NCBI RefSeq assembly: GCF_032854445.1 | Contig: NC_088305.1 | Coordinates: 1,121,001 to 1,185,000 of the forward strand | Length of the DNA: 64,000 nt | Reading direction: 5' to 3' | Source of the DNA: Liolophura sinensis | Lineage: Eukaryota > Mollusca > Polyplacophora > Chitonida > Chitonidae | In this document: piece after piece, positions 12,140 to 52,130 of the stretch | Layout of the letters: every line of letters begins with the position of its first letter | Numbering within the stretch: position 1 is the first letter of the stretch | The notes under the pieces: model-generated | The model's input: only the letters and a program-made list of their open reading frames with translations | Databases searched by the model: none | What the model was told of the DNA's origin: nothing | Program-made: the position numbers and the translations under genes

Positions 12140-12253
12140 TCACGAGGCTGCAGCAGAAGCTTTTAGGTCTGTGAAAAGCCCGGGGAACCAGTATTGCCTG
12201 TCTGTTGGGGACTGATCATCCACCCAGGCCAGTCCTTCTCTTACCATGTAATC
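12140..12253 (-). CDS. SNF8: SNF8 exon 8 (terminal)
   Basis: Residues 214-250 and TGA; acceptor TTGTTTGCAG. Ends [11 protein letters not shown], then [17 protein letters not shown]. Confidence 0.95.
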   Translation of the reverse strand, partial: DYMVREGLAWVDDQSPTDRQYWFPGLFTDLKASAAAS

Positions 12254-15200
12254 CTGCAAACAACACACACATATTAGCTCTCCCTCAATACCACAGTGAG
12301 CTTCCATGAATACCTGTGGACAGGTGAGAAGATACACATGGCAAAATCAATCATGGTCCACCCACACCTGTTCCTTGAAGACAACTTGTTGAAGATTTCA
12401 CCCATAATGGTTGTGAGAAGCTTCAGAAGTTAAGTAAGTGTTTACTTACTGATTTAATTGATTGCTGTTCCATAAATAAGAAGAATATTTCGCTTATACA
12501 ACGGCACTCAGTTTTGTGTTTAGACAAAACCAAGTCAGCCATTGCCCGGGTACACCACTAACATCTGAAACACTTCGCCTTATACACAAGGGTACTTCAG
12601 ATCCAAACAGTTGGAGAAGCTATAGAAATTATTTATTTATTTATTGGATGGGTGTTTTATGCCGAATATTATACTCATACAAAGGCACTTTATTTTATGG
12701 TTATACAAAACCAAGTCAGCCAGTGCCCGGGGGAACCACCCACCACTGGAAAACTTTGTTTACCCTAGAGTAGAACACTCTAGCTGGAGAAGCTAAGGAA
12801 ATTATTTATTCACAGGATTGGTATTCTATGCCGAACTCAAAAATATTTCGTTTATACGACCGAGGCAAGCATTATAGTGGAAAGAAACAAGACAGAAGCA
12901 TGTCTTGGTATTATATATTGTCAGCTGGACTTTTCCTGGTAGAGTGGTATACAATGCCCCACTTTTACATCACTAGTCCTTCACCAATGATAGTGGCTTA
13001 TGTGGGTGACCATACAAGGCAGCAGGACTGTTGCTGGCAGAATGGTCTAGGGTGCTCCAGTTTTACACCACTAGTCCTTCACCAATGATAGTGGCTTATG
13101 TGGGCTACCATACAAGGCAGCAGGACTGTTGCTGGCAGAATGGTCAAGGGTGCTCCAGTTTTACACCACTAGTCCTTCACCAATGATAGTGGCTTATGTG
13201 GGCTACCATACAAGGCAGCAGGACTGTTGCTGGCAGAATGGTCAAGGGTGCTCCAGTTTTACATCACTAGTCCTTCACCAATGATAGTGGCTTAGGTGGG
13301 CGACCATACAAGGCAGAAGGACTGTTGCTGGCAGAATGGTCAAGGGTGCTCCAGTTTTACATCACTATTCCTTCACCAATGATAGTGGCTTATGTGGACG
13401 ACCATACAAGGCAGAAGGACTGTTGCTGGCAGAATGGTCTAGGGTACTCCAGTTTTACATCACTAGTCCTTCACCAATGATAGTGGCTTAGGTTGGCGAC
13501 CATACAAGGCAGAAGGACTGTTGCTGGCAGAATGGTCTAGGGTACTCCAGTTTTACACCACTAGTCCTTCACCAATGATAGTGGCTTATGTGGGCGACCA
13601 TACAAGGCAGAAGGACTGTTGCTGGCAGAATGGTCTAGGGTACTCCAGTTTTACATCACTAGTCCTTCACCAATGATAGTGGCTTATGTGGGCTACCATA
13701 CAAGGCAGCAGGACTGTTGCTGGCAGAATGGTCTAGGGTGCTCCAGTTTTACATCACTAGTCCTTCACCAATGATAGTGACTTATGTGGGCGACCATACA
13801 AGGCAGCAGGACTGTTGCTGGCAGAATGGTCTAGGGTACTCCAGTTTTACATCACTAGTCCTTCACCAATGATAGTGGCTTATGTGGGCGACCATACAAG
13901 GCAGCAGGACTGTTGCTGGCAGAATGGTCTAGGGCGTTCCAGTTTTAAACCACTAGTCCTTCACCAATGATTCAATATGACAATAAGTTATGAAAAAAAG
14001 CCAACTGTCTTGAGAATGACCATTGGATTAGGTGTGAACCTCTTGTCTCCCGAGGCCTGAGGGTAGAGGGCTAATAAATAATATAAAATGTTAAGATAAC
14101 ATCTTACCATGGCCCTATGGGCGCGTCCACTCTCCCAGTTTAGCTCCTTGACAAGCTGTGACACCGTCACAAATCCTGTACCCTGAAAATACACACAAGT
14201 GTGGCATACATGTCAAGTGAACACATCTTTCAAAAACCCATTTTAGCGCTTCAGAAAACACTGCATTAATCTAAACATTGTGTAACCATAGCTGCACCTC
14301 GTTAGTCATATATAAAGCTTGAAAGTACTATGTTTCAACTAATACTGAGGGCAAATTACATTTCTATAAATGTAGAGTGTAGCACAGCTACGTATATAGT
14401 ACTGTCAAAACATGCCAACAACACCAAGCAGTACAGATAATGTCAAAAGTCAAAACATCACAGTATATGCTTAAAACTTAAAAACTGATGGCATTTGCTT
14501 CACTGATGATCAATACAACTTGTAGAAACAATGAATCAGTTTGGGAATAATTGCACACTGGCAACATATTGTAAAACATTTCCTCCACACACACTTCGCA
14601 ATACTAACATAAACAGAGCATTCAACATCAATACTGTTCAGCATTAATGAACTCTTTATATTTAAAATATTAAAACCATAAACACACTGTTCATTATTTC
14701 TTACATTAAACCTTATTGATACATTATGTATTTTCCAATAGTAGTACACATGTATGCTGTCGCTTTTTTTATCGTAACATACATCAGCTTGCTGTAGGAC
14801 AGTGGTATGGTCCATAGTTAGCTCCCCTGGAACAGACTGGACTAAGAAACTCCCTCCCACAGGAATCACAGAGAAACCGTTACCCAGCACTTTAAGTTTA
14901 CGGATAGCTCGTAAAAGGTCATCCCTGTAACCAAAACAACATTCCACAGGTCATCAATGAAACCAAAACATTCCACAGCTCATCCCTGAAACCAAAACAA
15001 CATTCTACAGCTCATCCCTGTAACCAAAACAACATTCCACAGCTCATCCCTGAAACCAAAACAACATTCTACAAATCATCCCTGTAACCAAAACAACATT
15101 CCACAGCTCATCCCTGAAACCAAAACAACATTCCACAGCTCATCCCTGAAACCAAAACAACATTCTACAAATCATCCCTGTAACCAAAACAACATTCCAC

Positions 15201-18200
15201 AGCTCATCCCTGAAACCAAAACATTCCACAGCTCATCCCTGAAACCAAAACAACATTCTACAGCTCATCCCTGAAACCAAAACAACATCTACAAATCATC
15301 CCTGTAACCAAAACAACATTCCACAGCTCATCCCTGAAACTAAAACAACATTCCACAGCTCATCTCTGAAACCAAACCAACATTCTACAGCTCATCCCTG
15401 AAACCAAAACAACATTCCACAGCTCATCCCTGAAACCAAAACAACATTCCACAGCTCATCCCTGTAACCAAAACAACATTCTGCAGCTCATCCCTGAAAC
15501 CAAAACAACATTCCACAGCTCATCCCTGTAACCAAAACAACGTTCTGCAGCTCATCCCTGTAACCAAAACAACATTCCACAGCTCATCCCTGAAACCAAA
15601 ACAACATTCCACAGCTCATCACTGAAACCAAAACAACATTCCACAGCTCATCCCTGAAACCAAAACAACATTCTACAGCTCATCCCTGTAACCAAAACAA
15701 CATTCCACAGCTCATCCCTGTAACCAAAACAACATTCCACAGCTCATCCCTGAAACCAAAACAACATTCTACAGCTCATCTCTGAAACCAAAACAACATT
15801 CCACAGCTCATCCCTGTAACCAAAACAACATTCCACAGCTCATCCCTGTAACCAAAACAACATTCCACAGCTCATCCCTGAAACCAAAACAACATTCCAC
15901 AGCTCATCTCTGAAACCAAACCAACATTCTACAGCTCATCCCTGAAACCAAAACAACATTCCACAGCTCATCCCTGAAACCAAAACAACATTCCACAGCT
16001 CATCCCTGAAACCAAAACAACATTCCACAGCTCATCCCTGAAACCAAAACAACATTCTACAGCTCATCCCTGTAACCAAAACAACATTCCACAGCTCATC
16101 CCTGTAACCAAAACAACATTCCACAGCTCATCCCTGAAACCAAAACAACATTCTACAGCTCATCCCTGAAACCAAAACAACATTCCACAGCTCATCCCTG
16201 AAACCAAAACAACATTCTACAGCTCATCTCTGAAACCAAAACAACATTCCACAGCTCATCCCTGAAACCAAAACAACATTCCACAGCTCATCCCTGAAAC
16301 CAAAACAACATTCCACAGCTCATCCCTGAAAGCAAAACAACATTCCACAGCTCATCCCTAAAACCAAAACAACATTCCACAGGTCATACATACAACAAGA
16401 ACATAATATGAAAACCCATACATATGAATCTTAGCAAAGATCAAAGCGAAATAAATTTGTCACAACAAAGCTGAACAGTTCTAAATAAATTGAAGTTCTA
16501 GGTCAGAGCAGTTGTCACGTTTACCGTCACATTCAACATCACTTCTGTCATATGACACTGTCTATTTGAAGCAGGCTGGAGCCAATGAAAAAATACTCAA
16601 GTGCATATATTTGTTGTGCTGCCTTGACGGAACCTATACAGGAAAACTGTTCAAAGCCATGTTATATCACTCAAAACTCAAAAACAAGTCTCATCATGTT
16701 TTTTTTGCACTTTTACTGGAAGACAAATCCTGAAATCAACCAAACTTGCCATGTATCTTTTACCTCCATGCTTAACTAGTTTTCACTTACATAATGACCT
16801 CTAGTTTGATGCCTGAAGTAAACCACTCACCCTTTGCCAGTTACTAACAAACTTTCCAATGTGGGATCATATCATATTGGCAAAAGGCCGACATTCTCAA
16901 ACAAAAACGTCAGGTAAGATCACACAAGAGATCACTACTGACGGCTTCTTGCCACCCAGCACACCCCAACACGAGAGATCTCTACTGACAACTTCCTGCC
17001 ACCCACCATACCCCAACACAAGAGATCTCTACTGACGGCTTCTTGCCACCCACCATACCCCAACACAAGAGATCACTACTGAAGACTTCTCGCCACCAAC
17101 CATACCCCAACACGAGAGATCGCTACTGACGGCTTCTTGCCACCCACCATACCCCGACACAAGAGATCACTGCTCACGGATTCTCGCCACCCACCATACC
17201 CCGACACAAGAGATCACTGCTGATGTTTTTTTGTCACCCACCACACCCCAACACAAGAGATCACTGCTGACGGCTTCTTGCCACCCACCATACCCCAACA
17301 CAAGAGATCACTACTGACGGTTTCTTGCCACCCACCGTACCCCAACACGAGAGATCGCTACTGACGGCTTCTTGCCACCCACCATACCCCGACACAAGAG
17401 ATCACTACGGACGGCTTTTCGTCACCCACCACACCCCAACACAAGAGATCACTACTGACGGCTTCTCACCACCCACCATACACCAACACAAGAGATCACT
17501 ACTGACGGCTTCTTGCCACCCACCACACCCCCACAAAAGAGATCACTACTGACGGCCTCTCGCCACCCACCATACCCCGACACAAGAGATCACTACTGAC
17601 GGCTTCTTGCCATCCACCACACCTCAACACGAGAGATCACTACTGACGGCTTCTCACCACCCACCATACCCCCAAAAAAGAGATCACTACTGACGGCTTC
17701 TTCCCACCCACCATACCCCAACACAAGAGATCACTGCTGACGGCTTCTTGCCACCCACCACACCCCAACACAAGAGATCACTACTGACGGCCTCTCGCCA
17801 CCCACCATACCCCCAAAAAAGAGATCACTACTGACGGCTTCTTGCCGCCCACCACACCTCAACACGAGAGATCACTAATGACGGCTTCTTGCCACCCACC
17901 ACACCCCAACACGAGAGATCACTACTGAGGGCTTCTCGCCACCCACCATACCCCCACAAAAGAGATCACTAATGATGGCTTCTCGCCACCCACCATAACC
18001 CAACACAAGAGATCACTACTGACGGCCTTTCGCCACCCACCATACCCCGACACAAGAGATCACTACTGACGGCTTCTTGCCATCCACCACACGCCAACAC
18101 AAGAGATCACTACTGACGGCTTCTTGCCATCCACCACACCCCAACACAAGAGATCACTACTGACGGCCTCTCGCCACCCACCATACCCCCACAAAAGAGA

Positions 18201-21200
18201 TCACTAATGACGGCTTCTCGCCACCCAGCATACCCCAACACAAGAGATCACTACTGACGGCTTCTTGCCATCCACCACACCCCAACACAAGAGATAACTA
18301 CTGACGGCCTCTCGCCACCCACCATACCCCCAAAAAAGAGATCGCTAATGACGGCTTCTTGCCGCCCACCACCACACCTCAATACGAGAGATCACTACTG
18401 ACGGCTTCTCACCACCCACAATACCCCAACACAAGAGATCACTACTGACAGCTTCTTGCCACCCACCACACCCTAACACAAGAGATCACTGCTGACAGCT
18501 TCTTGCCACCCAGCATACCCCAACACACGAGATCACTACTGACGGCTTTTCGTCACCCACCACACCCCAACAAAATAGATCACTATTGACAACCTCTCGC
18601 CACCCAGCACACCCCAACACGAGAGATCTCTACTGACGGCTTCTTGCCACCCACCATACACCAACACAAGAGATCACTATTGACGTCTTCTTGCCACCTA
18701 CCACACCCCAACACAAGAGATCACTACTGAGGGCTTCTCACCACCCACCACACCTCCACACAAGAGATCACTAATGACGGCTTCTTGCCATCCACCACAC
18801 CTCAACACAAGAGATCACTGCTGATGGCTTCTTGCCACCCACCACACCTCAACACGAGAGATCACTACTGAGGGCTTCTTGCTACCCAGCACACCCCAAC
18901 ACAAGAGATCACTACTGACGTCTTCTTGCCACCCACCATACACCAACACAAGAGATCACTACTGACGGCTTCTTGCTACCCAGCACACCCCAACACAAGA
19001 GATCACCGCTGATGGCTTCTTGCCACCCACCATACCCCAACACAAGAGATCACTGCTGATGGCTTCTTCTCACCCACCACATCCACCACAAGAGATCACT
19101 ACTGAGGGCTTCTCGTCACCCACCATACCCCAACACAAGAGATCACTGCTGATGGCTTCTTGCCACCCACCACACCACATCACAAGAGATCACTACTGAC
19201 GGCTTCTTGCCACCCACCATACACCAACACAAGAGATCACTACTGACGGCTTCTTGCCACCCAACACACCCCACCACAAGAGATCACTACTGACGGCTTC
19301 TTGCCACCCACCACACCTCAACACAAGAGATCACTACTGACGGCTTTTCCCCACCCATCATACCCTAACACAAGAGATCACTACTGACGGCTTCTTGCCA
19401 CCCACCACACCCCAACACAAGAGATCACTACTGACGGCTTCTCACCACCCACCACACCTCAACACAAGAGATCACGAATGACGGCTTCTTGCCACCCACC
19501 ACACCCTTACACAAGAAATCACTACTGACGGCTTCTTGCCACCCAGCATACCCCAATACACGAGATCACTACTGACGGCTTCTTGCCACCCACAGCATAC
19601 CCCAACACAAGAGATCACTGCTGACAGCTTCTTGCCACCCACCACACCCCAACACAAGAGATCACTACTGACGGCCTCTCGCCACCCACCATACCTCCAA
19701 AAAAGAGATCACGAATGACGGCTTTTCGTCACCCACCACACCCCAACACAAGGGATCGCTACTGGCGGCTTCTTGCCACCCACCACACCCCAACACAAGA
19801 GATCGCTACTGACGGCTTTTCGTCACCCACCACACCCCAACACAAGAGATCACTACTGACGGCTTCTTGCCATCCACCATACCCCAACACAAGAGATCAC
19901 TGCTGACGGCTTATTGCCACCTACAACACCCCAACACAAGAGATCACTGCTGACGGCTTATTGCCACCTACAACACCCCAACACAAGAGATCACTACTGA
20001 CGGCCTCTCGCCACCGACAATACCCTGACACAAGAGATCACTACTGAAGGCCTCTCGCCACCCTCCACACCCCCACAAAATAGATCACTATTGACGGCCT
20101 CTCGCCACCCACCATACCCCCGCAAAAGAGATCACTAATGACGTCTTTTCGCCACCCAGCATACCCCTACAAAAGAGATCACTACTGACGGCCTCTCGAC
20201 ACCCATAACACCCCAACACAAGAGATCGCTACTGACAGCTTCTTGCCACCCACAATACCCCAACACAAGAGATCACTACTGACGGCCTCTCGCCATCCAC
20301 CATACCCCGACACAAGAGATCACTACTGACGGCTTTTCGTCACCCACCATACCCCGACACAAGAGATCACTGCTGACGGCTTCTCACCACCCACCATACC
20401 CCAACACAAGAGATCACTACTGACGGCTTCTTGCCACCCACCATACCGCAACACAAGAGATCACTAATGACGGCTTCTTGCCACCCACCATACACCAACA
20501 CAAGAGATCACTAATGACGGCTTCTTGCCACCCACCACACCCCAACACAAGAGATCACTAATGACGGCTTCTTGCCACCCACCACACCCCAACACAAGAG
20601 ATCACTACTCATGGCTTCTTGCCACCCACCATACCCCAACACAAGAGATCACTACTGAGGGCTTCTCGCCACCCACCATACACCAACACAAGAGATCACT
20701 ACTGACGGCTTCTTGCCACCCACCACACCTCAACACAAGAGATCAATTCTGATGGCTTCTTGCCACTCACCACACCCCAACACAAGAGATCACTACTGAG
20801 GGCTTCTCGCCACCCACCACACCCCAACACAAGAGATCACTACTGACGGCTTCTTGCCACCCACCACACCTCAACACAAGAGATCACTACTGATGGCTTC
20901 TTGCCACCCACCACACCCTAACATAAGAGATCACTGCTGACAGCTTCTTGCCACCCAGCATACCCCGACATAAGAGATCACTACTGACGTCTTTTCGTCA
21001 CCCACCACACCCCAACACACGAGATCACTACTGACGGCTTTACGTCACCCACCACACCCTAACACAAGAGATCACTAATGACGGCTTCTTGCCACCCACC
21101 ATACCCCAACACAAGAGATCACTACTGACGGCTTCTTGCCACCCACCACACCCTAACACAAGAGATCACTGCTGACAGCTTCTTGCCACCCAGCATACCC

Positions 21201-24200
21201 CGACATAAGAGATCACTACTGACGTCTTTTCGTCACCCACCACACCCTAACACAAGAGATCACTACTGACGGCTTCTTACCACCCACCATACCCCAACAC
21301 AAGAGATCACTACTGACGGCTTCTTGCCACCCACCACACCCTAACACAAGAGATCACTGCTGACAGCTTCTTGCCACCCAGCATACCCCAACACACGAGA
21401 TCACTACTGACGGCTTTTCGTCACCCACCACACCCCAACAAAATAGATCACTATTGACAGCCTCTCGCCACCCACCATACCCCCACAAAAGAGATCACTA
21501 ATGACGGCTTCTTGCCATCCACCATACCCAAACACAAGAGATCACTACTGACGACTTCTTGCCATCCAACCATACCCCAACACAAGAGATCACTGCTGAC
21601 AGCTTTTCGTCACCCACCACACCCCAACACAAGAGATCACTACTGACGGCTTCTTGCCACCCACCATACCCCGACACAAGAGATCACTACTGAGGGCTTC
21701 TTGCTACCCACCATACCCCAACACAAGAGATCGCTACTGACGGCTTCTTGCCACCCAGCATACCCCAACACAAGAGATCACTGCTGACGGCTTCTTGCCA
21801 CCCACCACACCCCAACACAAGAGATCACTACTGACGGCCTCTCGCCACTCACCACATCCACCACAAGAGATCGCTACTGACGTCTTCTTGCCACCCACAG
21901 CATACCCCAACACAAGAGATCACTGCTGACAGCTTCTTGCCACCCACCACACCCCAACACAAGAGATCACTACTGACGGCTTTTCGTCACCCACCACACC
22001 CCAACACAAGAGATCACTGCTGACAGCTTTTCCTCACCCACCACACCCCAACACAAGAGATCACTGCTGACGGCTTCTTGCCACCCACCACACCCCAACA
22101 CAAGAGATCACTACTGACGGCTTCTCGCCACCCACCATACCCCGTCACAAGAAATCACTACTGACGGCTTCTCGCCACCCACCATACCCGAAGAACAATG
22201 CCACCTGAGGAATCTGGAAAATTTCCTCTCCGAGGATGGAACCGATATTGTCTGACACATGACCTTGACCAGCCATGTGATCTAGTTCAAATCTTGTACC
22301 ACAAAGCTCTCCCTCCAAGAGAAAGTTTAACGTATAAAAGTTAACAGATTTTGGGGGATTTCATGCTTATAACTTCAACAATGTCAAACAATGTAATAAA
22401 GATATGTGTTTGAATGCAAATTTTTTACTGGAATCAAAGCAGATTTTGGTATACAAGAGTTATAACAAGCATCGTACAGTATATTCCTAGTTTCGCATCG
22501 ACCGTTAAGCCCAGATATACTCACGTGCTAATGTCTTGTCTGCTTCTTCCTCCAGTGGCTGTCAATTTCCGCTTCAGTTCATCTATTCCTATCAAACCTG
22601 AAACAGTCAAACATGCACATTTATTTTTTTCAGCTATGGCAAAGCCTTACACCAAGGACGTTATGTTTTACTATTAATCTGTCTGTTTGGGGGTTGACAG
22701 CTGAGTGGTTAGTCTACCAGCACAGCTCAATGACTCAGAAGCCTCTCCCCATTGCTATCACTGTGAATTCAAGTCCAGCTCAAGCTGGTCTCTTCTCCTC
22801 TAAGATCTGCCAGTAACCTGCGAATGGTCATGAGTTACCTCTGGGCTATGCCCAGTTTACTCCCACCATAATGCTTGGGGTTGTCGTATAAGCAAGATAT
22901 TCTTAATCCATGATCAAATAAATAAATAATCTGTCTGTCTGTCTGTCTGCAACTTTACAGAAAAAGTTAGCACTTGGCTTTTGGTAAAAACTTGAACTCC
23001 CTTGGGCCTAGCAAGAAACAATTAAATTTTGGTTGTGATTTAGATCAACAATCTTCCCTGTCCACTACTAAGATTAACCAACACCTTACTTGTCAGACTT
23101 AAATACAGTGGGCGAGTTCTGGTATGACACGCCCACTCTCCTGGGTTCACACTACGTCTTAGCTGGGGAGTGAACCATGGTACAGTGGCTAGAGCCAATT
23201 GGCTTTCAGTTGACACCACTTTGAGACACGATTCAAATCCCACTCTCACCGGTTGAAGGGTCTCAATGGTTGTAGAGATCGAAGACATTGATGTTGCTGT
23301 TTGTGCGTTTCAACGTTTGTTCAAGACCACTTGTGTTACGGTACATGGATATGATGTGCGTACGTGTAGTTCACATGTGGGAGTGAGTGAGTGAGTGCTT
23401 GGGGTTTAACGAGGTCACATGCGGGGGAAGGTGAGTGAGTACTTGGGGTTTAACGAGGTCACGAGGGGGAGTGAGTGAGTGAGTGCTTGGAGTTTAACGA
23501 GGTCACATGTGGGAGTGGGTGAGTGTGTGCCCGGGGTTTAACAAGGTCACTTGTGGGAGTGAGTGAGTGAGTGAGTGCTTGGGGTTTAACTAGGTCACAT
23601 GTGGGAGTGACTGAGTGAGTGCTTGGGGTTTAACGAGGTCACGTGTGGGAGTGAGTGAGTGAGTGCTTGGGATTTAATGAGGTCACATGTTGGAAACTTT
23701 GTCATTCACTTGCCAAAGGTAAATGGTTGCATTACCCCGGAGACCGCCAGTGTTTGTGAAAGTGAAAGTGAAAGTCCTTAGTATTGTGTTACACAACAAT
23801 GACGCGAGACAAATTCCAGTCTTGTATGTTTACTTATTTGACTGGCATTAAAGTGAACATAAAGTGAGCCAATATAGCTGAATTAATTTATGAAGTTGTA
23901 TTCCAGAAATACTCTAAAAACATTTTTAAATTCTACACCGCTTATTAAGAAAGTAAATCGCAAACAATCGTCAGTACCTTGCCACTCATTTGGTGACGCC
24001 ATTTTGCCATGTTTTATGGTTCCATCGGTATAAAACAATGTGACGAAGAGAAAATACAAACAAAAACGCCTGATACCTAACCAAAGAGTATCATAGGGTT
24101 TGTATATGTATATGGAAATGAAGGAGTTTTCCAGGAGTTTTTTGTCATTTTCAAGGTTAGCTTAAACATCACATGCTGCAAATTATAGATTATATTTTAA

Positions 24201-32208: not shown

Positions 32209-32524
32209 TCAATCAGATTTAACTACTGTTATATTCACAAGTTTTTAACTGTTCTGTCAGGTATCCCGAGACAGGTTTTTTTTTTTCGAGACTTGATAGG
32301 TTTATGACTTTTTGAGAATTAAAGCTTCTTGTTCGTTGTGGTACTGGTATTGCCTTTCCGAGACAGAATTATTATTCCTCTTGAACCACTACATGTATTT
32401 CACCAGCTCTAAGGAATGCAGCATACATACAGTGTAACAATGTGATAAAAAAATTTAGCCCTTGCTGGGCATATTTTGAGATTGTGTGAAGAAAATGAAA
32501 CACAGCAGACCCCAAACAGAACAC

Positions 32525-34770: not shown

Positions 34771-34849
34771 CATGATGAAAACACTTCTGACTCCATGAAA
34801 AAGTGTTTATAGAAATATGTGTTCATAGTTCAGCATCTAGCCCAGGCTG

Positions 34850-35260: not shown

Positions 35261-35529
35261 CACAGAACCCATATTCATTAAGCAACTTAAAACTTAAATC
35301 ATAAATGACAAGTGCCTAAAATGCCAGAGCAGTAAAGAACTCAAACTGTGGTTTGTAAATTGTTCTTTTAAACTTCCTGGAGAGAAACAATTTAATTGCT
35401 GCTGTATTTGAATTCTGACTTAAAGGGGGAACCTGCCGGGGAGCTGTTGACGTCTTAAGACGCTTGATAAATATGGGTACAGGCTCACAGGCTGTTTTAG
35501 CCAATTGTATATTGTAGCTCATGGTGTTG

Positions 35530-35940
35530 TATGGCCTGTTTTATCTGGTTGTTGCGGCTTTCTCAGTTCAGAGGCTGTTTCAGCTGGTTGTCTAGCTCTC
35601 GTTGCAGGTATCTCAGTTTATAGACTGTTTCAGCTGGTTGTCTAGCTCTAGTGGTTGACGGTTTCTCAGTTTACATGTATAGTCCGCTTCAGCTGGTTGT
35701 CTAGCATTGGTTGTTGTCAGTTTCTCAGTTTCTAGCCTGTTTCAGCTGGTTGTCTAGCTCTGGTAGTTGACAGTTTCTCAGTTTACATGTATAGCCTGTT
35801 TCAGCTGGTTGTCTAGCTCTGGTGGTTGACAGTTTCTCAGTTCACATGTACTTGTATAGCCTGTTTCAGCTGGTTGTCTAGCTCTGGTGGTTGTGGGTTT
35901 CTCAATTTACATGTATAACCTGTTTTCGCTAGTTGTCTAG
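35530..35940 (-). repeat. 58-60 bp array, diverged relative of the stop-codon repeat
   Basis: About seven copies of a unit with GCTGGTTGTCTAGCTCTGGT and GTTTCTCAGTTTACATGTAT. On the PARP strand AGAGCTAGACAACCAGC resembles the TCAGCTAGACAACTGGC junction of the neighbouring array. Confidence 0.8.
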
Positions 35941-36345
35941 CTGAGGCCATTGTAGCAGTTGAGTATGGCTGGTTGTCTAGCTGAGGCTGTTGTAGTAGTT
36001 GTCTAGCTGAGGCTGTTGTAGCAGTTGAGTATGGCTGGTTGTCTAGCTGAGGCTGTCGTAGTAGTTGTCTGGCTGAGGCTGTTGTAGTAGTTGTCTGGCT
36101 GAGGCTGTTGTAGTAGTTGTCTAGCTGAGGCTGTTGTAGTAGTTGAGTACGGCCAGTTGTCTAGCTGAGGCTGTTGTAGTAGTTGAGTACGGCCAGTTGT
36201 CTTGCTGAGGCTGTTGCAGTAGTTGAGTACGGCCAGTTGTCTTGCTGAGGCTGTTGCAGTAGTTGAGTACGGCCAGTTGTCTAGCTGAGGCTGTTGTAGT
36301 AGTTGAGTACGGCCAGTTGTCTAGCTGAGGCTGTTGTAGTAGTTG
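35940..36345 (-). repeat. 40-bp array made of the last codons and stop of the PARP gene
   Basis: About ten full or shortened copies directly downstream of, and overlapping, the PARP stop. On the gene strand a unit is CTGGCCGTACTCAACTACTA, then CAACAGCCTCAGCTAGACAA; the genuine coding end is GGCCATTCTCAACTACTACA, then ACAGCCTCAGCTAG. Each full copy repeats the codons for LNYYNSLS and the TAG. Confidence 0.95.
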
Positions 36346-36529
36346 AGAATGGCCTGGTCAAGGTTCATGTCAGCTTGAGTCACATGATGCCTGGCCAACA
36401 TCACATCTTCAATCTGTGTGACCTGGATGAATTCAGCGACGAGTTGAGCCTTCACCAGCTCCACAGGGTCCTCCTTGAGGAGGCTCAGGGGCTTTGGCTT
36501 GGCAGATGATGCAGTCCCATGGGTATTAT
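36321..36529 (-). CDS. PARP/UBA gene terminal exon (UBA-like domain)
   Basis: 68 codons and TAG. AQLVAEFIQVTQIEDVMLAR, then HHVTQADMNLDQAILNYYNS, has the three-helix pattern of UBA-like domains (F-x3-T-x2-E-D, then the L-D-x-A-I-x-x-Y-Y helix). The stop-codon segment is tandemly repeated downstream. Confidence 0.9.
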
Positions 36530-39500
36530 CTGAATACACAACAATAAAGTGTACAGTGTGTATTTATTTATTTATGTGCTTCAAGTTTTCCACGGTCAGT
36601 TTTATGAGTGGGGGAAGCTGCTAGGTGCTGTCGACCAAGGCATTATAGACAATGAGAGCGGGGCAATCCAAAAATATGAATTCCTTGTTCAAGGCAGAAT
36701 GTTCACATAGGAGGCCATCACAAATTTAAAACATGTAGACCAACACGGCAGCAAATTAGCAAGTATACTTACCCACAAGGAAAACATCTTTCTTTCCACT
36801 TGGGCTTGAAATCTGTAAAGAGAATGATCAACCACATCTTTAATCTTTTGGTTTGATTGTTCAAGTATATTTCACTTCTACATGAATGATGCCAGATGGC
36901 AATCAGGTTTAATGCAGGGGGAGAAAACCCGGTTAACCCTACATACCTAAAGCCACAGATGAATTTGCGTGGAGGGAGGGAGGAAGGGGGGAGGACTTGG
37001 GAAGACCACCCATTGCATATGTAGTGGGTCAAAAAGCGACACATTAGCCAAGGGAACCAATGAGGGGACCAGTCACATCTGTATAGTATATCAGAAAGTG
37101 TCACAAGACACTTCCCAGTGCAACACTGTGACCTCTGACCTCATTATGTGTGATGTGCACAAGGTGTATTTACGCTATGTGAAATTCCTCGAACATTTCG
37201 CACTGAGAAAATCGAATTTCAGTGCAGTTTATGCATTTTGAATTTGAGTTTTGGAGAGAAAACTGTCTGATATAAGGGCTTCACAAAAAGTTGAACTTTA
37301 TCAACCAGTAATGATTGCAAGGGAGCATAACCCAAACCGCAACCAAAAATAAATGTGATATAGCGCAATTTAGCGTAGTAAACTGTAGCGGGAGCTCGGT
37401 GTAACATTACGATTTGCTGAACTGCGCATAAACTGGTTTTATCCACTGAGTGGCAGAGAAACTAAGCACATAATAGACAAGCTATATACTCAAAAGGTAG
37501 ATAAATGCACATGAATTAACAAATTAAATCACAATGAGATCAAAGTGTCCTGACACTTGAAAGCAATTCAAATAATTTTCAAAATGCAATAAGGCTATTC
37601 GAAGTTAACTTTGACAAAAAGCAAATTAATCCCAACCACTAGACAAAATTAAGCTATTCTGATAGCAAAAGGGAAAGAAACCTACCTGTACACTTTTCTC
37701 TAATTGTCTTTGTCGTCGAATCTCCTCTCTAACCTTCTTTAGTATCTCAACATGATCATCTTCCCCTACACTCAGAGCATCTGTAAACACAAAGCAAATT
37801 CACAACCTTCAACTATGAAGACGAGATTTTTCTTTAGTCTCTCTAATTGATCATCTTTCCTTATGGCCAGCACATCTATCAACACAAAGCAAACCCACAA
37901 CCTTCAACATGAAGACAAGATTTTTCTTTAGTCTCTCTAATTGATCATCTTTCCTTATGGCCAGCACATCTATCAACACAAAGCAAATCCACAACCTCCA
38001 ACTATGAAGACGAGATTTTTCTTTAGTCTCTCTAATTGATCATCTTTCCTTATGGCCAGCACATCTATCAACACAAAGCAAGTCCACAACCTTCAACATG
38101 AAGACGAGATTTTTCTTTAGTCTCTCTAATTGATCATCTTTCCTTATGGCCAGCACATCTATCAACACAAAGCAAATCCACAACCTTCAACTATGAAGAC
38201 GAGATTTTTCTTTAGTCTCTCTAACTGATCATCTTTCCTTATGGCCAGCACATCTATCAACACAAAGCAAATCCACAACCTCCAACTATGAAGATGAGAT
38301 TTTTCTTTAGCCTCTCTAATTGATCATCTTTCCTTATGGCCAGCACATCTATCAACACAAAGCAAATCCACAACCTCCAACTATGAAGACGAGATTTTTC
38401 TTTAGTCTCTCTAATTGATCATTTTCCCTTATGGCCAGCACATCTATCAACACAAAGCAAATCCACAACCTTCAACTATGAAGATGAGATTTTTCTTTAG
38501 TCTCTCTAATTGATCATCTTCCCTTATTGCCAGCACTTCTATCAACACAAAGCAAATCCACAACCTTCAACTATGAAGATGAGATTTTTCTTTAGTCTCT
38601 CCAATTGATCATCTTCCCTTATGGCCAGCACTTCTATCAACACAAAGCAAATCCACAACCTTCAACTATGAAGATGAGATTTTTCTTTAGTCTCTCTAAT
38701 TGATCATCTTCCCTTATGGCCAGCACTTCTATCAACACAAAGCAAATCCACAACCTTCAACTATGAAGACGAGATTTTTCTTTAGTCTCTCTAATTGATC
38801 ATCTTTCCTTCTGGCCAGCACATCTATCAACACAAAGCAAATCCACAACCTCCAACTATGAAGACGAGATTTTTCTTTAGTCTCTCTAATTGGTCATCTT
38901 TCCTTATGGCCAGCACTTCTATCAACACAAAGCAAATCCACAACCTTCAACTATGAAGACGAGATTTTTCTTTAGTCTCTCTAATTGATCATCTTTCCTT
39001 ATGGCCAGCACATCTATCAACACAAAGCAAATCCACAACCTTCAACTATGAAGACGAGATTTTTCTTTAGTCTCTCTAATTGATCATCTTTCCTTATGGC
39101 CAGCACATCTATCAACACAAAGCAAATCCACAACCTCCAACTATGAAGACGAGATTTTTCTTTAGTCTCTCTAATTGATCATTTTCCCTTATGGCCAGCA
39201 CATCTATCAACACAAAGCAAATCCACAACCTTCAACTATGAAGATGAGATTTTTCTTTAGTCTCTCTAAATTGATCATCTTCCCTTATGGCCAGCACTTC
39301 TATCAACACAAAGCAAATCCACAACCTTCAACTATGAAGATGAGATTTTTCTTTAGTCTCTCTAACTGATCATTTTCCCTTATGGCCAACACATCTGTCA
39401 ACACAAAGCAAATCCACAACCTTCAATTATGAAGATGAGATTTTTCTTTAGTCTCTCTAATTGATCATTTTCCCTTATCGCCAGCAGATCTATCAACACA

Positions 39501-42500
39501 AAGCAAATCCACAACCTTCAACTATGAAGACGAGATTTTTCTTTAGTCTCTCTAATTGATCATCTTTCCTTATGGCCAGCACTTCTATCAACACAAAGCA
39601 TATCCACAACCTTCAACTATGAAGACGAGATTTTTCTTTAGTCTCTCTAATTGATCATCTTTCCTTATGGCCAGCACTTCTATCAACACAAAGCAAATCC
39701 ACAACCTTCAACTATGAAGACGAGATTTTTCTTTAGTCTCTCTAATTGATCATTTTCCCTTATGGCCAGCACATCTATCAACACAAAGCAAATCCACAAC
39801 CTCCAACTATGAAGACAAGATTTTTCTTTAGTCTCTCTAATCGATCATCTTTCCTTATGGCCAGCACATCTATCAACACAAAGCATATCCACAACCTTCA
39901 ACTATGAAGACGAGATTTTTCTTTAGTCTCTCTAACTGATCATCTTTCCTTCTGGCCAGCACATCTATCAACACAAAGCAAATCCACAACCTCCAACTAT
40001 GAAGATGAGATTTTTCTTTAGTCTCTCTAATTGATCATTTTCCCTTATGGCCAGCACATCTATCAACACAAAGCAAATCCACAACCTTCAACTATGAAGA
40101 CCAGATTTTTCTTTAGTCTCTCTAATTGATAATTTTCCTTATGGCCAGCACATCTACCAACACAAAACAAATCCACAACCTTCAACTATGAAGACCAGAT
40201 TTTTCTTTAGTCTCTCTAATTGATCATCTTCCCTTATGGCTAGTACATCTATCAACACAGTCAACACAAAGCAAATTCACAATCTTCAGCTATGAAGAAA
40301 AGACTATTCTTTAGTCTCTCTAATTGATCATTTTCCTTATGGCCAGCACATCTATCAACACAAAGCAAATCCACAACCTTCAACTATGAAGACGAGATTT
40401 TTCTTTAGTCTCTCTAATTGATCATTTTCCCTTATGGCCAGCACATCTATCAACACAAAGCAAATCCACAACCTTCAACTATGAAGACGAGATTTTTCTT
40501 TAGTCTCTCTAATTGATCATTTTCCCTTATGGCCAGCACATCTATCAACACAAAGCAAATCCACAACCTTCAACTATGAAGACCAGATTTTTCTTTAGTC
40601 TCTCTAATTGATCATCTTCCCTTATGGCTAGTACATCTATCAACACAGTCAACACAAAGCAAATTCACAATCTTCAGCTATGAAGAAAAGACTATTCTTT
40701 AGTCTCTCTAACTGATCATCTTTCCTTATGGCTGGAGAATCTATCAACACAAAGCAAATCCACAACCTCCAACTATGAAGACAAGACTTTCAAATTCAAA
40801 TGAATGTGTCAGCTTATATCAACTCCTAAATGTTTACCCTGTCCAACATAAAACATCACAGGGCCCTGCATGGCCAAGTGGTTAACATGCTAGGAGACTC
40901 TCATCAATGTGGTCACTGTGTGTTCAAGTCCACGTCATACTGGTTTCCCCTCCTTTAGTATGATTGAATGTCTGCCAGCATCCTGCAGATGGTCGTGGAC
41001 TTTGACCTGTTCCTCGAACCATAAGTGAAATGTTTGGTATAAAACTCCAATCAAATAAATAAATAAAACATAAATGAACCTAATGTATATGGTAGCACAG
41101 TGTTAAAACTCATTTTGTTCAATATACTGACCGCCATTGTATAAGGGAAATATTCTTCAATATAGGGTAAACCACCAATCAAATAAATACATAAGAAATC
41201 AAAATGCTGTACCTTGATTGTGACTGAAAGGAACAGTAGCGGGTGGGTCTGGAAAAGAGGAATCTGGGTGACCATCAGCCACAGAACTGGGGCCTACTGT
41301 CACAGAACTGGGCTCCGCAGTCACAGAATTGGGGTCTACAGCGACAGCACCATGGATATTCTCATAACCGTTCACAGAGTCACTGTCTTGAATCACAGAA
41401 TCACAGTCTGAATCCTCATCTGAAACACTCCTGTCGTCCCCATAAGGCTGCAAATGATTCTGAAACCCAGTCTCACTTGTAACACTCACATCAGTCTCCT
41501 GGGCCTGACTACTTTCTGTGTCTGAAGGAGATAAAACTGAGGGGATAGTAGTTTCCTCAGAGCTGGTTGCTATGGTAATGCCGTTGTTGATGTCAACATC
41601 GTTCAGAGACACTGGAACTGGCACCCACTTCAGCTTAGTGCTCTTTACGTCTGTGGTTGTTACCTCTCGTTCAACTGTTCCAACTATGGAGTCAGTTGCT
41701 GTGGTAACTGGTTCATCACATGACTCTCGGCAGGTTATGATGTACTCCGTCATCGCCCTACGATTCTCATATATCACGAACTCATTGAAGTCTCTAGGAC
41801 AGCCCTGCGGAGCCAAACACAAAGTTACAACCACAAACTGTATAAAATGACCTAAAATTTCACAAATAACCAAGTTGGACATATTGCCAGATACTGAGAG
41901 TTCTACTGATCTCAGAAAGGTGTTTTAAGGTTTGTGTGGAACGTGGGATTATATCCTACAGCAGAAATGCAAGGTGTGACCCCATGAGTAATATTTTTGT
42001 AAACTTATCATCCTCTACACAGTAAAACTGCACTTTTGGTGATTTATCATTTTTATTTCATTTATTTTATTATTTATCTATTTGACTACTGTTTGACTAC
42101 TAACACCACACACTACAGTTTCCCCCCTCAGGCATGCCAGGTGGAGGTAAACTGGAGTGTCCTAACTTACTGAGGACTCTACATAGGACTGACAAAGTTG
42201 TCATTGACAAAAATAGTTATTCAGTGTATAATTTGGGATTTGGACATTTGTTTAAATGTACAGTGTAAACATAGATTATACCACCAATTACAAGCTGTTT
42301 CATGATTATGTAGTTCTGTTAGTTGGGGCCAATCTCACAAAGCTTCTGAACCCAACTAACAGACATTAGAGGGTCATGTAGCCAACTAACAGACATTGGA
42401 GGGTCATGCAGCCTACTAACAGATATTAAAGGGTAATGCAGCTGGTTAACAGACATTAGAGGGTCATGTAGCCTGCTAACAGACATTGGAGGGTCATGCA

Positions 42501-45500: not shown

Positions 45501-48500
45501 TATTTGCATCACAAATATTATCTAAATCACCGAAACACTTCAGTGGAATGCACGCATACATGTATACCCCAAGGTCATCGTCACAGTTGTAAGAGATAGT
45601 GTGTTCTCTCCCAAAATCTCCCTTTCTGCTCAGTCAGAATTCAGATTCTCCTCACAGACAACTCACTTACCTGAAGTATATCCCTCTCCCAAAATCTCCC
45701 TTTCTGCTCAGACGTTGATCTAGACTCTCCTCACAGACAACTCACTTACCTGAAGTATATCCCTCGCCCAAAATGTCCCTTCCTGCTCAGATGTTGATCC
45801 AGACCGTCCTCACAGACAACTCACTTACCTGAAGTATATCCCTCTTCCAAAATGTCCCTTTCTACTCAGACGTTGATCCAGGTTCTCCTCACAGACAACT
45901 TCCTTGGCCACTTTAGTCCCATGGTACAAATATCGCTCATTGATGGCAAACCCTGCACACAAATACATGAAGAGTAAACTACTGCTTATACAGCCTGGTA
46001 TGTTACTTGATCATAAATATACGTAGAATTCATTACAATTTTTTAAGCTCCAAGGATTCCTCATTCTACATTCTAGATTTTCTTTGTTATTTGATTGATT
46101 GAATGAATGATTGATTGATTGCCCTTAAATGTCATTCTCAATAATACTTCATTATATGACAGCAGCTGACATTACCTTCAATATACTGCATATGACAGGA
46201 GCTAATGTCAATCCTCAACATATTATTCTGTCTAATATATTATTCTAAAACTTTCTGCCTTCAACGGTCTTCCTGTAATTCTTAAGTGTTATCCCATGCT
46301 TTTCTAGCATATTCTGTGAGCATCATTCTGTGTGGGCTTCAAACTAAGCCTTTTTTTTGAAGCCCTAAAATTGGCAAACCCAACCAATGTATAGTAAATG
46401 ACCTAAAGTTTCGCAAGTGAATTACTGTCTTTTATTTTCACACGATCTGAGTTGGCGGCAAAATGACAAGAAGAGAGCGATTAACCCCAGATTGTTTCAT
46501 TACCCTGCACGGGCACTTGATAGCTCTGACTGCTAATCCTTGCCACGTGGGGTCAAGTCACTGACACTGAGGTGTGCAGGTCACCCGACTAGTAGGCCTA
46601 CATGTACATCTCTAAACATACCCATGAATGAAACCGAAGAAAGTATCAAGACAGGAAATGTCAATTACAAATCTTGAAATTCCAAACACTGTCTTAAAGC
46701 ATGCATAACAACTGTGAATGCCAAAGTTAGGCCTACATGGAAGTCACTACACACGGTCATCTGGTGAAAGGTTGTCTGCTGAGAGCCCTCATAATGCAAT
46801 GAATATATGTACAAATGTATTTCAGTTAAAGGCGAATTTCACTGAGAAATATCTGTCACCAGCTTCCCATGTCCAGGTACATGTAATTCCAAAATGTATG
46901 TCAGTCTGGATGCGTGTTTTGTTTTGTTCCAATCAGAACTGTCCTCCTGTTGCAGGGGAGTTACCTGTTCTGGCGTTATGAAATCAGGAACCCTCGATTA
47001 AACATAGAAAACGCAGTTTCCAAAAACTACCACGATTAACTTTGATCAAGGTGCGCCTTTGGTGAAGTAAACCGTTATGTACTAAATTCATTATGATTAA
47101 AACTGAGGAAAATATGAATTGTTGGTGGCAGGAGCATAGACTGACAGCTAAGTGAAGCGTGGGCTTGTTTATTACATTACGGAACTGTTCATATAACCCC
47201 CTGACCAAAGCCGATGCACTCCCGCGGCGCCAAGTCTGTAAGAACCACAATCAACCCAGTGATTCTCAGGGCAAAACTTTAGGTCATTTACCATAGTTTA
47301 TCCCCAAAATCAAATCAAAAGGTGCATAAAATGCACTGAAGTTGTCACATGTATGATGATGATGATGGTCAGGTTCACTGGTGAAGCCAACCTGAATGGC
47401 TGGAGTAAACCACTAACCTTTGTTAAGTATCTGTGGTCGGCAAACCAGCGAAAGCTGGCTTCAAACATGAGACAAGGGCCTGAAGTCTGGAGCAAAAATG
47501 ATGCCTTACACAATAAATCATTTTACACGACTTATCAGATAATATAATATATAAGAACTCTCTGTCGGAGACTCATGAATGCTAACTACAGTTGGCTGCA
47601 GCCAGTACCTGCAGTACTTTTTGAGATACCACCTCTATCATTTACTGTACGGTAACATTGTTTTCCCCATTATTGGACACTCATACTTCCAAACTCACCA
47701 TTTCGTCTATTGTCCATGTGTTCTTTTTCTTTCCTGTAACGATCCAACAACATGAAATTCTGCAATCTTTCAATTGACACCACACTGAGAGAAGCCTTCG
47801 AAAATTCCCTACAAATAGTGTCATATTCTGCAACCCCAGGAGACAGTGTGACAAGCACGTAGTCCGCATGTGGAGCATCCGACCCACGCGCCTCACAGTC
47901 CCACGTTTCTGGTATACCATTATCATCTAGTGGAGACGGTACGAGGCACATCTCTACGTCGATGTTGTCATCCTGCAGGACGTCCTGCTCAAACTGAAGA
48001 TGAGACGCAGGGCTACACTGTTTCCCTTTAAGAACTTCAGCTAGCTCAGGATTGACAGAATCGCCATCAAGAAAAGCCACAGCCTTGTCGGAATACTTCT
48101 CCTGTGCTGCTCTGCGAGATTTCCTCTGCAGCTGCCTTTTTCTCCGTCTCGACTCCACCCCGGACAGTTGTTGTGGCCTAGTCGTTTGCAACTCTAACAC
48201 CTTCTTTAGCTCCTCACTTTTCTCCTCATCAGATGAGGTGCTCCGATCACTGTCCATGTCCACGCAAGGCCAGCTGTCAGCACTGATCCCCTCAACCTAT
48301 ACCAGCAATACAAAACAACAACTGTGGAAAGGCTGTACGTACTGATTTATTGATTTCATTATGTTTATTTGATTGTTGCTTAACTTTATGATGCACTTTA
48401 TCTAATGGAAGTCAGATTAAGGGGCGATGGAAACTGCTGTGACAACAGCGAAATTCATAAATATCCCTGTCCAAGACAGGATTTCAACCCACACCTTATG

Positions 48501-51500: not shown

Positions 51501-52130
51501 ATCTGCTCACCAAAACGGCCAGAAAGAGAGTGGAAAACTGCTTGGCAGATACCTAAAATGCTCATAGTAAACCACTGACCTCTGGCAACTATCTGATGAA
51601 CTTTCCCATTTGACACAGATTTTCAACCACAGTCAGCTATGACCTACACAGGTGGAAGACAAGAATAAATATCCAGTGAACTTCACTTAAGACAGTGTGT
51701 ATTAATATCTAAAATCCCTTGCGAGCCCTCCGGAATATCTGTTGCCACCACAACTCCAAGAACAGTGGATGAAGGGACCACAAACGTACCGGGATACGCA
51801 GTAGCTGCACGCAACCTGTCTGTATGCTTTTTGGTGTTCTTTACTCAGGAAAGGCTATCTCATGAGGTAACTAGAATATACAAGTATTTGATCAGTGAGG
51901 AGTTTTGGGTGCTGCTTGCCTTTGATGACCAGCTTCTCACAGGTTCACTAAGAAAAGTTGATTCTCAAAAGAATTCAGGTTACTCTACTGTGGTACGTGA
52001 CGGCACCAAATTTTTTACAAATTCTCGTATCAGCATGCATACCTGAGGCACCATCAGTTACAAGATCCAACAAATTTTGACTGTCATCATAGAAATCCAC
52101 TTGCTCACTAAGAGGTCTTTGATGTGACAT
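36321..52130 (-). CDS. PARP-family ADP-ribosyltransferase with N-terminal UIM and C-terminal UBA-like domain, complete 10-exon gene
   Basis: Exons, 5' to 3' on the minus strand: 52130-52043, 50615-50407, 48296-47699, 45952-45829, 45281-45191, 43630-43538, 41804-41213, 37780-37686, 36812-36773, 36529-36321. They join in frame to 712 residues and TAG. Start: first ATG after an in-frame TGA, reading MSHQRPLSEQVDFYDD. Residues 34-48 (LWYEAQLKAALEESL) fit a ubiquitin-interacting motif (A-x3-S core). Residues 147-166 are very basic (ESRRRKRQLQRKSRR...), a likely nuclear signal. Residues about 255-426 are the PARP catalytic fold: SIERLQNFMLLDRYRKEKE, YLYHGT (His309), GHFGRGIYF (Tyr338), FYDSV, and NEFVIYENRRAMTEYIITC (Glu409), giving an apparent H-Y-E triad. 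An acidic, Ser/Thr-rich linker follows, then a helical segment (606-630) and a UBA-like tail (672-712). I do not recognise a named orthologue. Confidence 0.93.
36773..36812 (-). CDS. PARP/UBA gene exon 9 (40-bp microexon)
   Basis: Thirteen codons plus one base (ISSPSGKKDVFLV); acceptor TCTTTACAG, donor G|GTAAGT. Phases fit both neighbours; with a length of 3n+1 it cannot be skipped without a frameshift. Confidence 0.75.
36813..37685. other. PARP/UBA intron 8
   Basis: Unique sequence with a G-rich stretch at about 36971-36996 (plus strand). No exon or repeat recognised. Confidence 0.5.
37686..37780 (-). CDS. PARP/UBA gene exon 8 (charged helix; parent of a satellite)
   Basis: 31 codons, ALSVGEDDHVEILKKVREEI then RRQRQLEKSVQ, probably helical. 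Acceptor GTGTTTACAG|ATGCTC, donor CAG|GTAGGT. The 5' half and acceptor resemble the 95-bp satellite upstream in intron 7. Confidence 0.87.
37781..40790 (-). repeat. 95-bp satellite derived from PARP/UBA exon 8, in intron 7
   Basis: About 31 copies of a ~95-bp unit beginning at the exon 8 acceptor. On the gene strand a unit contains GCTTTGTGTTGATAGATGTG, then AAGGAAAGATGATCAATTAG, AGAGACTAAAGAA; exon 8 with its acceptor has GCTTTGTGTTTACAGATGCT, then GGGGAAGATGATCATG and TTGAGATACTAAAGAA. Copies are 90 percent or more alike by eye. A ~104-bp variant with a GTCAACACA insertion appears twice (about 40230 and 40640), evidence of segmental duplication within the array. Confidence 0.95.
40860..41068 (+). 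mobile_element. SINE family 1 copy in PARP/UBA intron 7
   Basis: Starts GGGCCCTGCATGGCCAAGTG (tRNA-like head), has GTGTTCAAGTCC and CCTGCAGATGGTCGTGG, and ends AAATAAATAAA. A second 3' tail piece follows at about 41128-41192. Confidence 0.75.
41213..41804 (-). CDS. PARP/UBA gene exon 7 (end of catalytic domain and acidic linker)
   Basis: 197 codons; acceptor GGCTCCGCAG, donor G|GTACAG. Starts GCPRDFNEFVIYENRRAM; the Glu of NEF aligns with the catalytic Glu in PARP1 (NEY) and tankyrase (AEY). The remaining ~170 residues are Asp/Ser/Thr-rich and probably disordered. Confidence 0.92.
41805..43537. other. PARP/UBA intron 6
   Basis: Includes a 30-bp array at about 42350-42540 (unit CTAACAGACATTAGAGGGTC plus ATGTAGCCAA, about six copies), a dispersed-repeat piece at about 42990-43100, and an inverted repeat at 43208-43405. 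Otherwise nothing recognised. Confidence 0.6.
43205..43408. repeat. Inverted repeat (foldback) in PARP/UBA intron 6
   Basis: CCTTATTTTCATAAAAGTAA...ATAAATTCCACTGAA at about 43207-43246 is an imperfect reverse complement of TTCAGTGGAATTTATGCATA...ATTATGAAAATGAT at about 43364-43402. Arms are about 40 bp with a loop of about 115 bp. Confidence 0.75.
43538..43630 (-). CDS. PARP/UBA gene exon 6
   Basis: 31 codons; acceptor TGTTTTATAG, donor AAG|GTACAT. Ends RKFYDSVK, the YDS motif of PARP domains. Confidence 0.88.
43631..45190. other. PARP/UBA intron 5
   Basis: Unique sequence throughout as far as I can see; no repeat array and no additional exon needed by the frame. Confidence 0.55.
45191..45281 (-). 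CDS. PARP/UBA gene exon 5
   Basis: Acceptor CACTTTTCAG, donor AAG|GTACAT; completes YFSDNPRKCLQYV and continues with CILKCRVVLGDTK, typical PARP core strands. Confidence 0.92.
45605..45828 (-). repeat. 79-bp tandem duplication of the end of PARP/UBA exon 4 with its donor
   Basis: Donor strings on the plus strand (cttacctgaag) recur at 45670, 45749 and 45828, an exact 79-bp spacing. Each copy carries sequence like TGTGAGGAGARTCTGGATCA upstream and GGGATATACTTCAG|GTAAGT, i.e. the exon 4 part for EENLDQRLSRKGHFGRGIYF plus the donor. The outermost copy decays after about 60 bp. Confidence 0.94.
45829..45952 (-). CDS. PARP/UBA gene exon 4 (His and Tyr of the catalytic triad)
   Basis: Acceptor GTGTGCAG, donor AG|GTAAGT. 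Encodes FAINERYLYHGTKVAKEVV, then GHFGRGIYF. Its last ~70 bp with the donor are tandemly copied three times just downstream (45630-45828). Confidence 0.94.
45953..47698. other. PARP/UBA intron 3
   Basis: Unique apart from a dispersed family 2 piece at about 47370-47480 and an (ATG)n run near 47353. No exon seen. Confidence 0.55.
47699..48296 (-). CDS. PARP/UBA gene exon 3 (basic region, start of catalytic domain)
   Basis: 199 codons; acceptor GGTATAG with a weak pyrimidine tract, donor G|GTGAGT. Holds the basic cluster and, at its end, VVSIERLQNFMLLDRYRKEK, the conserved first strand and helix of PARP catalytic domains. Confidence 0.9.
48546..48750 (+). mobile_element. SINE family 1 copy in PARP/UBA intron 2
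   Basis: tRNA-like head (GGCCTGAGTAGTTAGCCTGG), family body, GGCATAAAACACTAATCGAA and AATAAATAA tail. Confidence 0.78.
48930..49150 (-). mobile_element. SINE family 1 copy, minus orientation
   Basis: The reverse strand carries the tRNA-like head near 49150 (TGGTGAGAGGCTCC region) and the family body down to a TTTACTAAAAGA-side tail; internally diverged. Confidence 0.65.
49326..49905. mobile_element. Possible MITE-like non-autonomous DNA transposon
   Basis: The left end CCATCCAGACTATCCAAC and the reverse complement of the right end (CCACATGCTATCCAAC) are similar; both continue inward with TTGACTCAACAG-like and CACTCAACTC-like strings. TTGAGT/ACTCAA motifs recur through the 580 bp. No open frame. 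Confidence 0.5.
50058..50255 (-). mobile_element. SINE family 1 copy, minus orientation
   Basis: Well-preserved body (GGTGGGAGGAAACCGGGCAC, AGCCCGGGGGAATCCCACGA) after an ATTTATTGGATTAGTGTTTTA tail side; the head is truncated. A further short truncated piece lies at about 50625-50712. Confidence 0.8.
50407..50615 (-). CDS. PARP/UBA gene exon 2 (ubiquitin-interacting motif)
   Basis: 69 codons; acceptor CCTACGCAG, donor CTG|GTGAGT. The UIM-like helix is followed by an acidic, Gln-rich segment ending in QQQQQL. Confidence 0.85.
50868..51040 (+). mobile_element. SINE family 1 copy, 5'-truncated
   Basis: Body CCAGCCGTAGGTGGGAAAGT through CCCCCGGGTTCTGCCCGG to AATAAATAAATAAA; the tRNA head is degraded. 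Confidence 0.8.
51041..52042. other. PARP/UBA intron 1, remainder
   Basis: Two poly(C) tracts at about 51340-51378 and a dispersed family 2 piece at about 51560-51620. No exon recognised. Confidence 0.6.
52043..52130 (-). CDS. PARP/UBA gene exon 1 (start codon)
   Basis: 29 codons, MSHQRPLSEQ..., donor G|GTATGC. An in-frame TGA 15 bases before the ATG fixes the start. A TTTTGTAG at about 52179 could be a 5'UTR acceptor. Confidence 0.8.

Follow-up and report, generated by a model that had tools for sequence, protein, structure and literature searches.

Minisatellite-like tandem copies that run over an exon-intron boundary, termed mirages, are known from amphioxus, where they have been described at 5' or 3' splice sites of Adh3, the globin genes BflGb6 and BflGb9, troponin C and PGBD5, with units of 10-160 bp and many copies that keep AG or GT (available parts of PMC3087553 and PMC3902484), and where reverse-transcription polymerase chain reaction results suggest regular splicing (available part of PMC3087553). 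Here we describe structures of this kind in the chiton Liolophura sinensis, in a 64-kb stretch of its genome assembly (C11:1121001-1185000; hereafter the window, with positions counted from its first nucleotide). Two neighbouring genes on the minus strand of the window, SNF8 and a gene with a PARP catalytic domain and a UBA domain (PARP/UBA), contain five minisatellites that each hold copies of the adjoining gene edge, a splice site in four cases (two donors and two acceptors) and a stop codon in the fifth. We consider it likely that these are splice-site-spanning minisatellites of the mirage kind, which originated neutrally and without a special mechanism that anchors them to exons.

The chiton arrays likewise consist of minisatellite-like copies over exon-intron boundaries and occur at both kinds of splice site, at 10 donors and 4 acceptors among exons sampled across the genome and at two of each in the window. 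The splice dinucleotides are also widely kept: GT or AG is present in 144 of the 149 aligned extra copies of 18 arrays (14 sampled and four from the window), and thus the extra copies have not been purged. The differences from the amphioxus mirages lie in the molluscan host, in the genes concerned, which are unrelated, in the presence of one array over a stop codon, and in that their frequency per exon edge has been sampled (14/430). Instability of length, between haplotypes or somatically, is a further mark of mirages; the chiton arrays are known here from the sequence of one assembly. As the host is a chiton and not a cephalochordate, they represent the same kind of structure and not amphioxus mirages by descent. 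The mirage reports that we found are all from amphioxus, and the chiton arrays are a known kind of structure in a new phylum. A thin search of the open-licence literature found no report of such arrays for chitons or molluscs, term look-up in the available parts of two chiton genome papers (PMC11545220, PMC12005716) returned nothing on them, and the available part of the L. sinensis assembly paper (PMC11068029) likewise contains nothing on them; for another chiton genome, 9.21% is given as found by Tandem Repeats Finder (TRF) (available part of PMC11545220). The L. sinensis assembly was first published under the name Liolophura japonica (available part of PMC11068029), and its species name has since been corrected (PMC12441733). 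Minisatellites on exon-intron boundaries are also known among the internal tandem repeats of human segmental duplications, which have units of ~30 bp on average and alter gene structure in recent paralogs (available part of PMC2812944), whereas at the exon edges examined here the deduced chiton proteins seem unchanged.

A first-pass annotation of this stretch, made from its sequence alone, had claimed five arrays with units of 33, 32, 79, 95 and 40 bp that contain the adjoining exon boundary, and all five were recovered by TRF and their edges seen unit by unit. The 33-bp minisatellite (28122..28602, minus strand) spans the donor of SNF8 exon 2 (28589..28639, minus strand). This exon terminates at 28589 in ATCAAATCGCGCAG|GTAGGT, with the donor GT at 28588, and the unit is made up of those 14 exon bp and 19 intron bp; GT is kept in 15/15 of the rows listed from 28602 to 28140 and in 13/13 aligned extra copies. 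The 32-bp minisatellite (14919..16387, minus strand) lies over the acceptor of SNF8 exon 6 (14783..14924, minus strand), which starts at 14924 and is directly preceded by TTTTGGTTACAG; its ~46 copies each comprise 26 intron and 6 exon bp, and AG is kept in 44/45 aligned extra copies. In PARP/UBA, where the first exons are numbered as in the first-pass annotation and the numbering is provisional at the 5' end of the gene, the catalytic exon (exon 4; 45829..45950, minus strand, start approximate) ends in ACTTCAG|GTAAGTG, and the 79-bp minisatellite over this donor (45606..45900, minus strand) has a unit of 72 exon bp followed by the seven intron bases GTAAGTG. GT is kept in both (2/2) of its aligned extra copies, behind which lies a broken third copy. 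The 95-bp minisatellite at the acceptor of PARP/UBA exon 8 (array 37735..40790; exon 37687..37780 with its end approximate, starting at 37780; both minus strand) comprises 32 copies over ~3 kb, each with 49 intron and 46 coding bp. The exon is preceded by TTTACAG, and AG is kept in 31/31 aligned extra copies. The coding half of exon 8 is 76% identical to the array consensus as against 94% for the intron half, a drift that is expected if only the exon copy still codes.

The fifth array, a 40-bp minisatellite (35930..36354, minus strand) that runs downwards from 36354, lies over the stop codon in the last exon of PARP/UBA (36321..36529, minus strand). Its unit consists of the last 31 coding bp, TAG and the 6 following bases, and TAG has survived in 4 of the first 6 listed units. 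More decayed related arrays follow it: between 34966 and 36354 (minus strand) the array gives way to a series of shorter, decayed arrays with units of 26, 59 and 20 bp (TRF), which by eye have a CAGCTAG-like core in common with it, as if they had budded successively.

The first-pass annotation had further stated that each array starts at the exon edge and runs away from the exon. The four splice-site arrays in fact begin inside the exon, with 6-72 bp of it in the unit, and not exactly at the edge. Their course away from the exon is seen, but it follows from splicing by definition: the arrays seem to grow away from the exon because the copy that adjoins it is the one counted as exon. Their independent origin is upheld in that the unit lengths differ and the units have no visible mutual relation, and the arrays are thus probably independent events. 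A dispersed repeat family was rejected for the five units taken together, as 68/68 genome matches of one query joining them fall within the window, in a search that skipped very common words and scored the best candidates only. The repeat-rich background that had been noted, with arrays lacking any exon edge, is also real and includes, in SNF8, a 47-bp array of 112 copies between exons 5 and 6 (16922..22189) and a 98-bp array in the last intron (12922..13971), both found by TRF and both away from exon edges.

Arrays of this kind recur in other genes. We sampled 215 conserved exons with 430 edges in 162 loci (~278 kb), comprising a first sample of 142 exon matches from four protein families (chaperonin, proteasome, kinase and AAA) with 800 bp of flank on each side, and a second sample of 73 kinesin exon matches with 330 bp of flank on each side, which was added after the result of the first was known. 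For the first sample 55/138 domain matches were retained for kinases and 47/50, 21/21 and 19/20 for the other families; for kinases the intention was to retain matches no longer than ~330 bp, since those above this length probably lack introns. Among kinesin matches 127/132 were retained, from which the 73 were drawn at random. The match lists comprise scored candidates only (131/842 for kinases, 19/135 for AAA and 122/207 for kinesins). An array was counted if it had a TRF score of at least 50 and a period of at least 15, and was taken to cross an edge if it overlapped it by at least 5 bp; the planned settings had differed (overlap 8, period 10, domain-internal edges only, probe offsets of 150/300/450 bp, radius 700). 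There are 71 arrays in the sample, and 14 of them, at 10 donors and 4 acceptors, cross an exon edge (loci L024, L035, L045, L047, L052, L065, L098, L099, L108, L113, L150, L154, L159 and L162), i.e., about 3% of sampled edges carry a crossing array. By family, two of these belong to chaperonins, one to proteasome, five to kinase and six to kinesin exons, with none among the 19 AAA exons. Self-alignment yields two more, at a second exon edge in L099 and at an acceptor in L100. These two loci are nearby stretches, apparently of one CCT chaperonin gene, in which an array spans an edge of each of two exons in L099, and arrays lie close to both sides of the exon of L100.

The break points of the 14 crossing arrays are spread over the unit. 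The exon share of the unit ranges from 0.08 to 0.85 with a mean of 0.38 and is not clearly non-uniform (Kolmogorov-Smirnov p = 0.11, n = 14); neither a fixed break point at AG|GT nor an exon-side hot spot finds support among these arrays, and the edge seems to lie at no particular place within the duplicated piece. The earlier suggestion of slippage at the exon edge itself is therefore not borne out, since nothing in this spread points to the edge.

For neutral arrays of the mirage kind, we envisage that a tandem duplication would start at a more or less random place and, where the duplicated unit happened to straddle an exon edge, would give rise to an array with copies of the splice site. 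Slippage or unequal exchange would then add and homogenise copies. The splice site adjoining the intact exon would stay in use while the extra copies remained intronic or, in the stop-codon array, behind the first stop. The protein would thus be unchanged, and such arrays would be tolerated as others in introns are. Continuity of the deduced protein suggests use of the exon-proximal site.

Of the alternatives, the one that survives best is that exon edges are preferred starts of duplication, for instance owing to chromatin or replication features at exons, so that there is a true mutational excess at them; we regard this as possible, though clearly less probable than a neutral origin with random placement. 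The matter turns on the claim that edge anchoring exceeds chance, for which the sampled exons give two answers. In a collapsed-seed test, in which each array was reduced to one founding unit and the unit placed randomly, 14 crossings stand against 6.9 expected (ratio 2.0, p = 0.005), and the excess has the same direction in both samples (8 vs 4.6 expected, p = 0.07, in sample one; 6 vs 2.3 expected, p = 0.014, in the kinesin sample). Over eight settings, with edges adjusted by eye or not, 11-15 crossings were counted against 5.6-6.9 expected (p 0.002-0.017), including 11 vs 5.6 (p = 0.017) at the planned settings and 15 vs 6.9 (p = 0.002) with all edges left unadjusted. The nine edges so adjusted, all near arrays and all after viewing, are in L005, L045, L100, L108 (twice), L137, L154, L160 and L162. 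A first run on sample one with unadjusted edges gave 9/57 crossing arrays vs 4.6 expected (p = 0.03), L100 among the nine being a false crossing, and in the same unadjusted sample 10 arrays cross an edge (one by <5 bp), compared with 2-8 (mean ~4) per 60-bp distance bin out to 600 bp. With adjusted edges, sample one alone is not significant at 0.05. Of 15 arrays in the window, 4 lie across a splice edge, with 30 such edges and 0.74 crossings expected (p = 0.005; 40 kb, two genes), a comparison in which some PARP edges are approximate and which is post hoc, because the window was chosen for this very pattern; its array list was compiled by hand from TRF, with overlapping rows merged and two short coding-exon arrays and one 43-bp array excluded.

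An intronic-point control gives the other answer. When 60-bp probes were searched for a copy within 300 bp (score of at least 40), a copy was found for 13/330 edge probes as against 19/330 and 24/330 probes placed 100 and 200 bp into the intron, and at a shuffle threshold of 24 there is likewise no edge excess (28 edge probes vs 30 and 38 intronic probes). The intronic probes score high because expanded arrays fill much of the introns. Neither the exon share of the unit, which is without skew to the exon, nor the lack of a fixed break point favours the exon edge as a preferred start. Thus, the anchoring that the first-pass annotation had judged to be more than chance is retained as a two-fold excess of founding units and disappears against plain intronic points; the answer hinges on the control used, and both results matter. 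Two points weigh against a random placement of the founding duplications, or against our measurement of it, and have to be kept in view: the collapsed-seed excess itself, by which placement is perhaps not fully random, and the fact that the sampled exon edges are predicted and not annotated, 330 of the 430 having been set by splice-site scoring near the ends of domain matches and the other 100 at the match end. A two-fold seeding bias at exon edges may exist.

A second alternative, close to one raised in the first-pass annotation, is that arrays retaining a spare splice site beside the true one are favoured or protected by selection, as the high retention of splice dinucleotides might suggest. 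When retention is measured against the exon copy the splice site is indeed kept above average (p = 0.008), but the constraint on the exon copy itself biases this comparison. Within copies, retention of the splice dinucleotides does not significantly exceed that of other dinucleotides (mean percentile 0.59, p = 0.086, 14 arrays with at least three copies), and homogenisation alone accounts for the high retention; we therefore consider such selection unlikely. In L035 the extra donors score 7.0 in 3/4 copies compared with 4.2 for the true donor, and in L162 the one extra donor scores 6.6 compared with 3.6, while in several loci the extra donors equal the true donor and in others they score lower (e.g., 2.1 vs 4.4 in L159). 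As some decoys outscore the true donor, strength alone could not choose the site if the exon-proximal one is used. L035 and L162 are good test cases for position-based splice-site choice.

It is still less probable that the arrays are what remains of the origin of the introns themselves. In a model of intron gain due to Rogers, as cited in the available part of PMC3087553, exon sequence containing AG|GT is duplicated in tandem, and this was put forward for the amphioxus mirages; a potato RdRp gene is reportedly a case of intron gain by tandem duplication with splice signals (PMC4974935). The duplication of splice signals is common to this model and the chiton arrays, whose units hold exon sequence together with a splice signal. 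However, all four splice-site units in the window include 7-49 bp of intron sequence, and hence the intron predates the array. The arrays moreover fill only part of their introns, e.g., 1.5 kb of the 7.6 kb that separate exons 6 and 5 of SNF8, so that none of the four window cases is a new intron wholly within duplicated exon sequence; the chiton arrays enlarge an existing intron, and no new intron is shown. Lastly, false tandem copies introduced at exon edges by assembly are highly improbable, as the copies differ by substitutions and indels, the diverged units of an array extend over up to 3 kb, and the assembly was built from HiFi reads (available part of PMC11068029), even though in the mitochondrial contig (C99) the mitogenome is repeated in tandem, probably through an assembly effect. 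That contig contains seven COX1 matches ~15.5 kb apart and a long TA-rich repeat adjoining COX3. Its gene order reads as the ancestral molluscan one, which speaks against a lancelet origin of the assembly, an idea prompted by the literature on mirages; a GFP-family search without any match does so weakly, as its control sequence likewise matched nowhere.

The identities of the two host genes are supported by domain matches. With the exons searched singly, SNF8 exons 3 and 4 match EAP30/SNF8 in Pfam, exon 6 alone gives EAP30 matches under the cut-off, and the Pfam search with exon 8 gave no match; a solved-structure look-up of exon 7 returned weak SNF8 matches. A tblastn search with a hand-typed human SNF8 query also supports the gene, with E 1e-17 for exon 6 and, weakly, E 0.1 for the short exon 2, the splice sites of which were read directly. 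The joined exon translations of PARP/UBA match the PARP catalytic domain (PF00644, E 2.1e-17), to which the translated catalytic exon belongs, exon 8 is called from its open frame and splice sites, and the last exon, called from Pfam, frame and stop, carries a UBA_4 domain (E 5.7e-06); a solved-structure look-up of this short exon gave no useful match. PARP/UBA probably also carries a translated minisatellite at 41276-41414 (minus strand), where 21-bp tandem repeats (two TRF rows) lie inside a long open frame with a unit that is a multiple of three. Elsewhere in the window, an open frame with a PAX/HTH_23-like DNA-binding domain (60907-61140, minus strand) is apparently part of a decayed DNA transposon. 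Open frames at 829-1065, 32000-32212 and 50844-51002 (minus strand), which by eye have phrases such as RGKPTTIRRLL and GGQHYGG in common, are apparently copies of one dispersed short element, and a 112-bp array, itself containing a 24-bp repeat, extends from 61644 to the window end at 64000 (TRF).

The occurrence of the same structures in a phylum distant from amphioxus, at ~3% of sampled edges, suggests that the birth of minisatellites generally yields them as a by-product in invertebrate genomes rich in repeats. The arrays amount to a large set of natural constructs, with nearly identical splice sites in competition at varied distances from the exon, and thereby bear on proximity rules in splice-site choice; they also mark possible places of origin for new splice sites or exons. 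It may tentatively be proposed that exon edges are favoured starts of minisatellites in the chiton, that about one splice edge in 30 has intact decoy sites, some of which outscore the true site, and that the spliceosome must choose by position beside the exon. If this were true, exon definition and the earliest stages in the origin of new splice sites would be the subject of a natural experiment that takes in a whole molluscan gene set.

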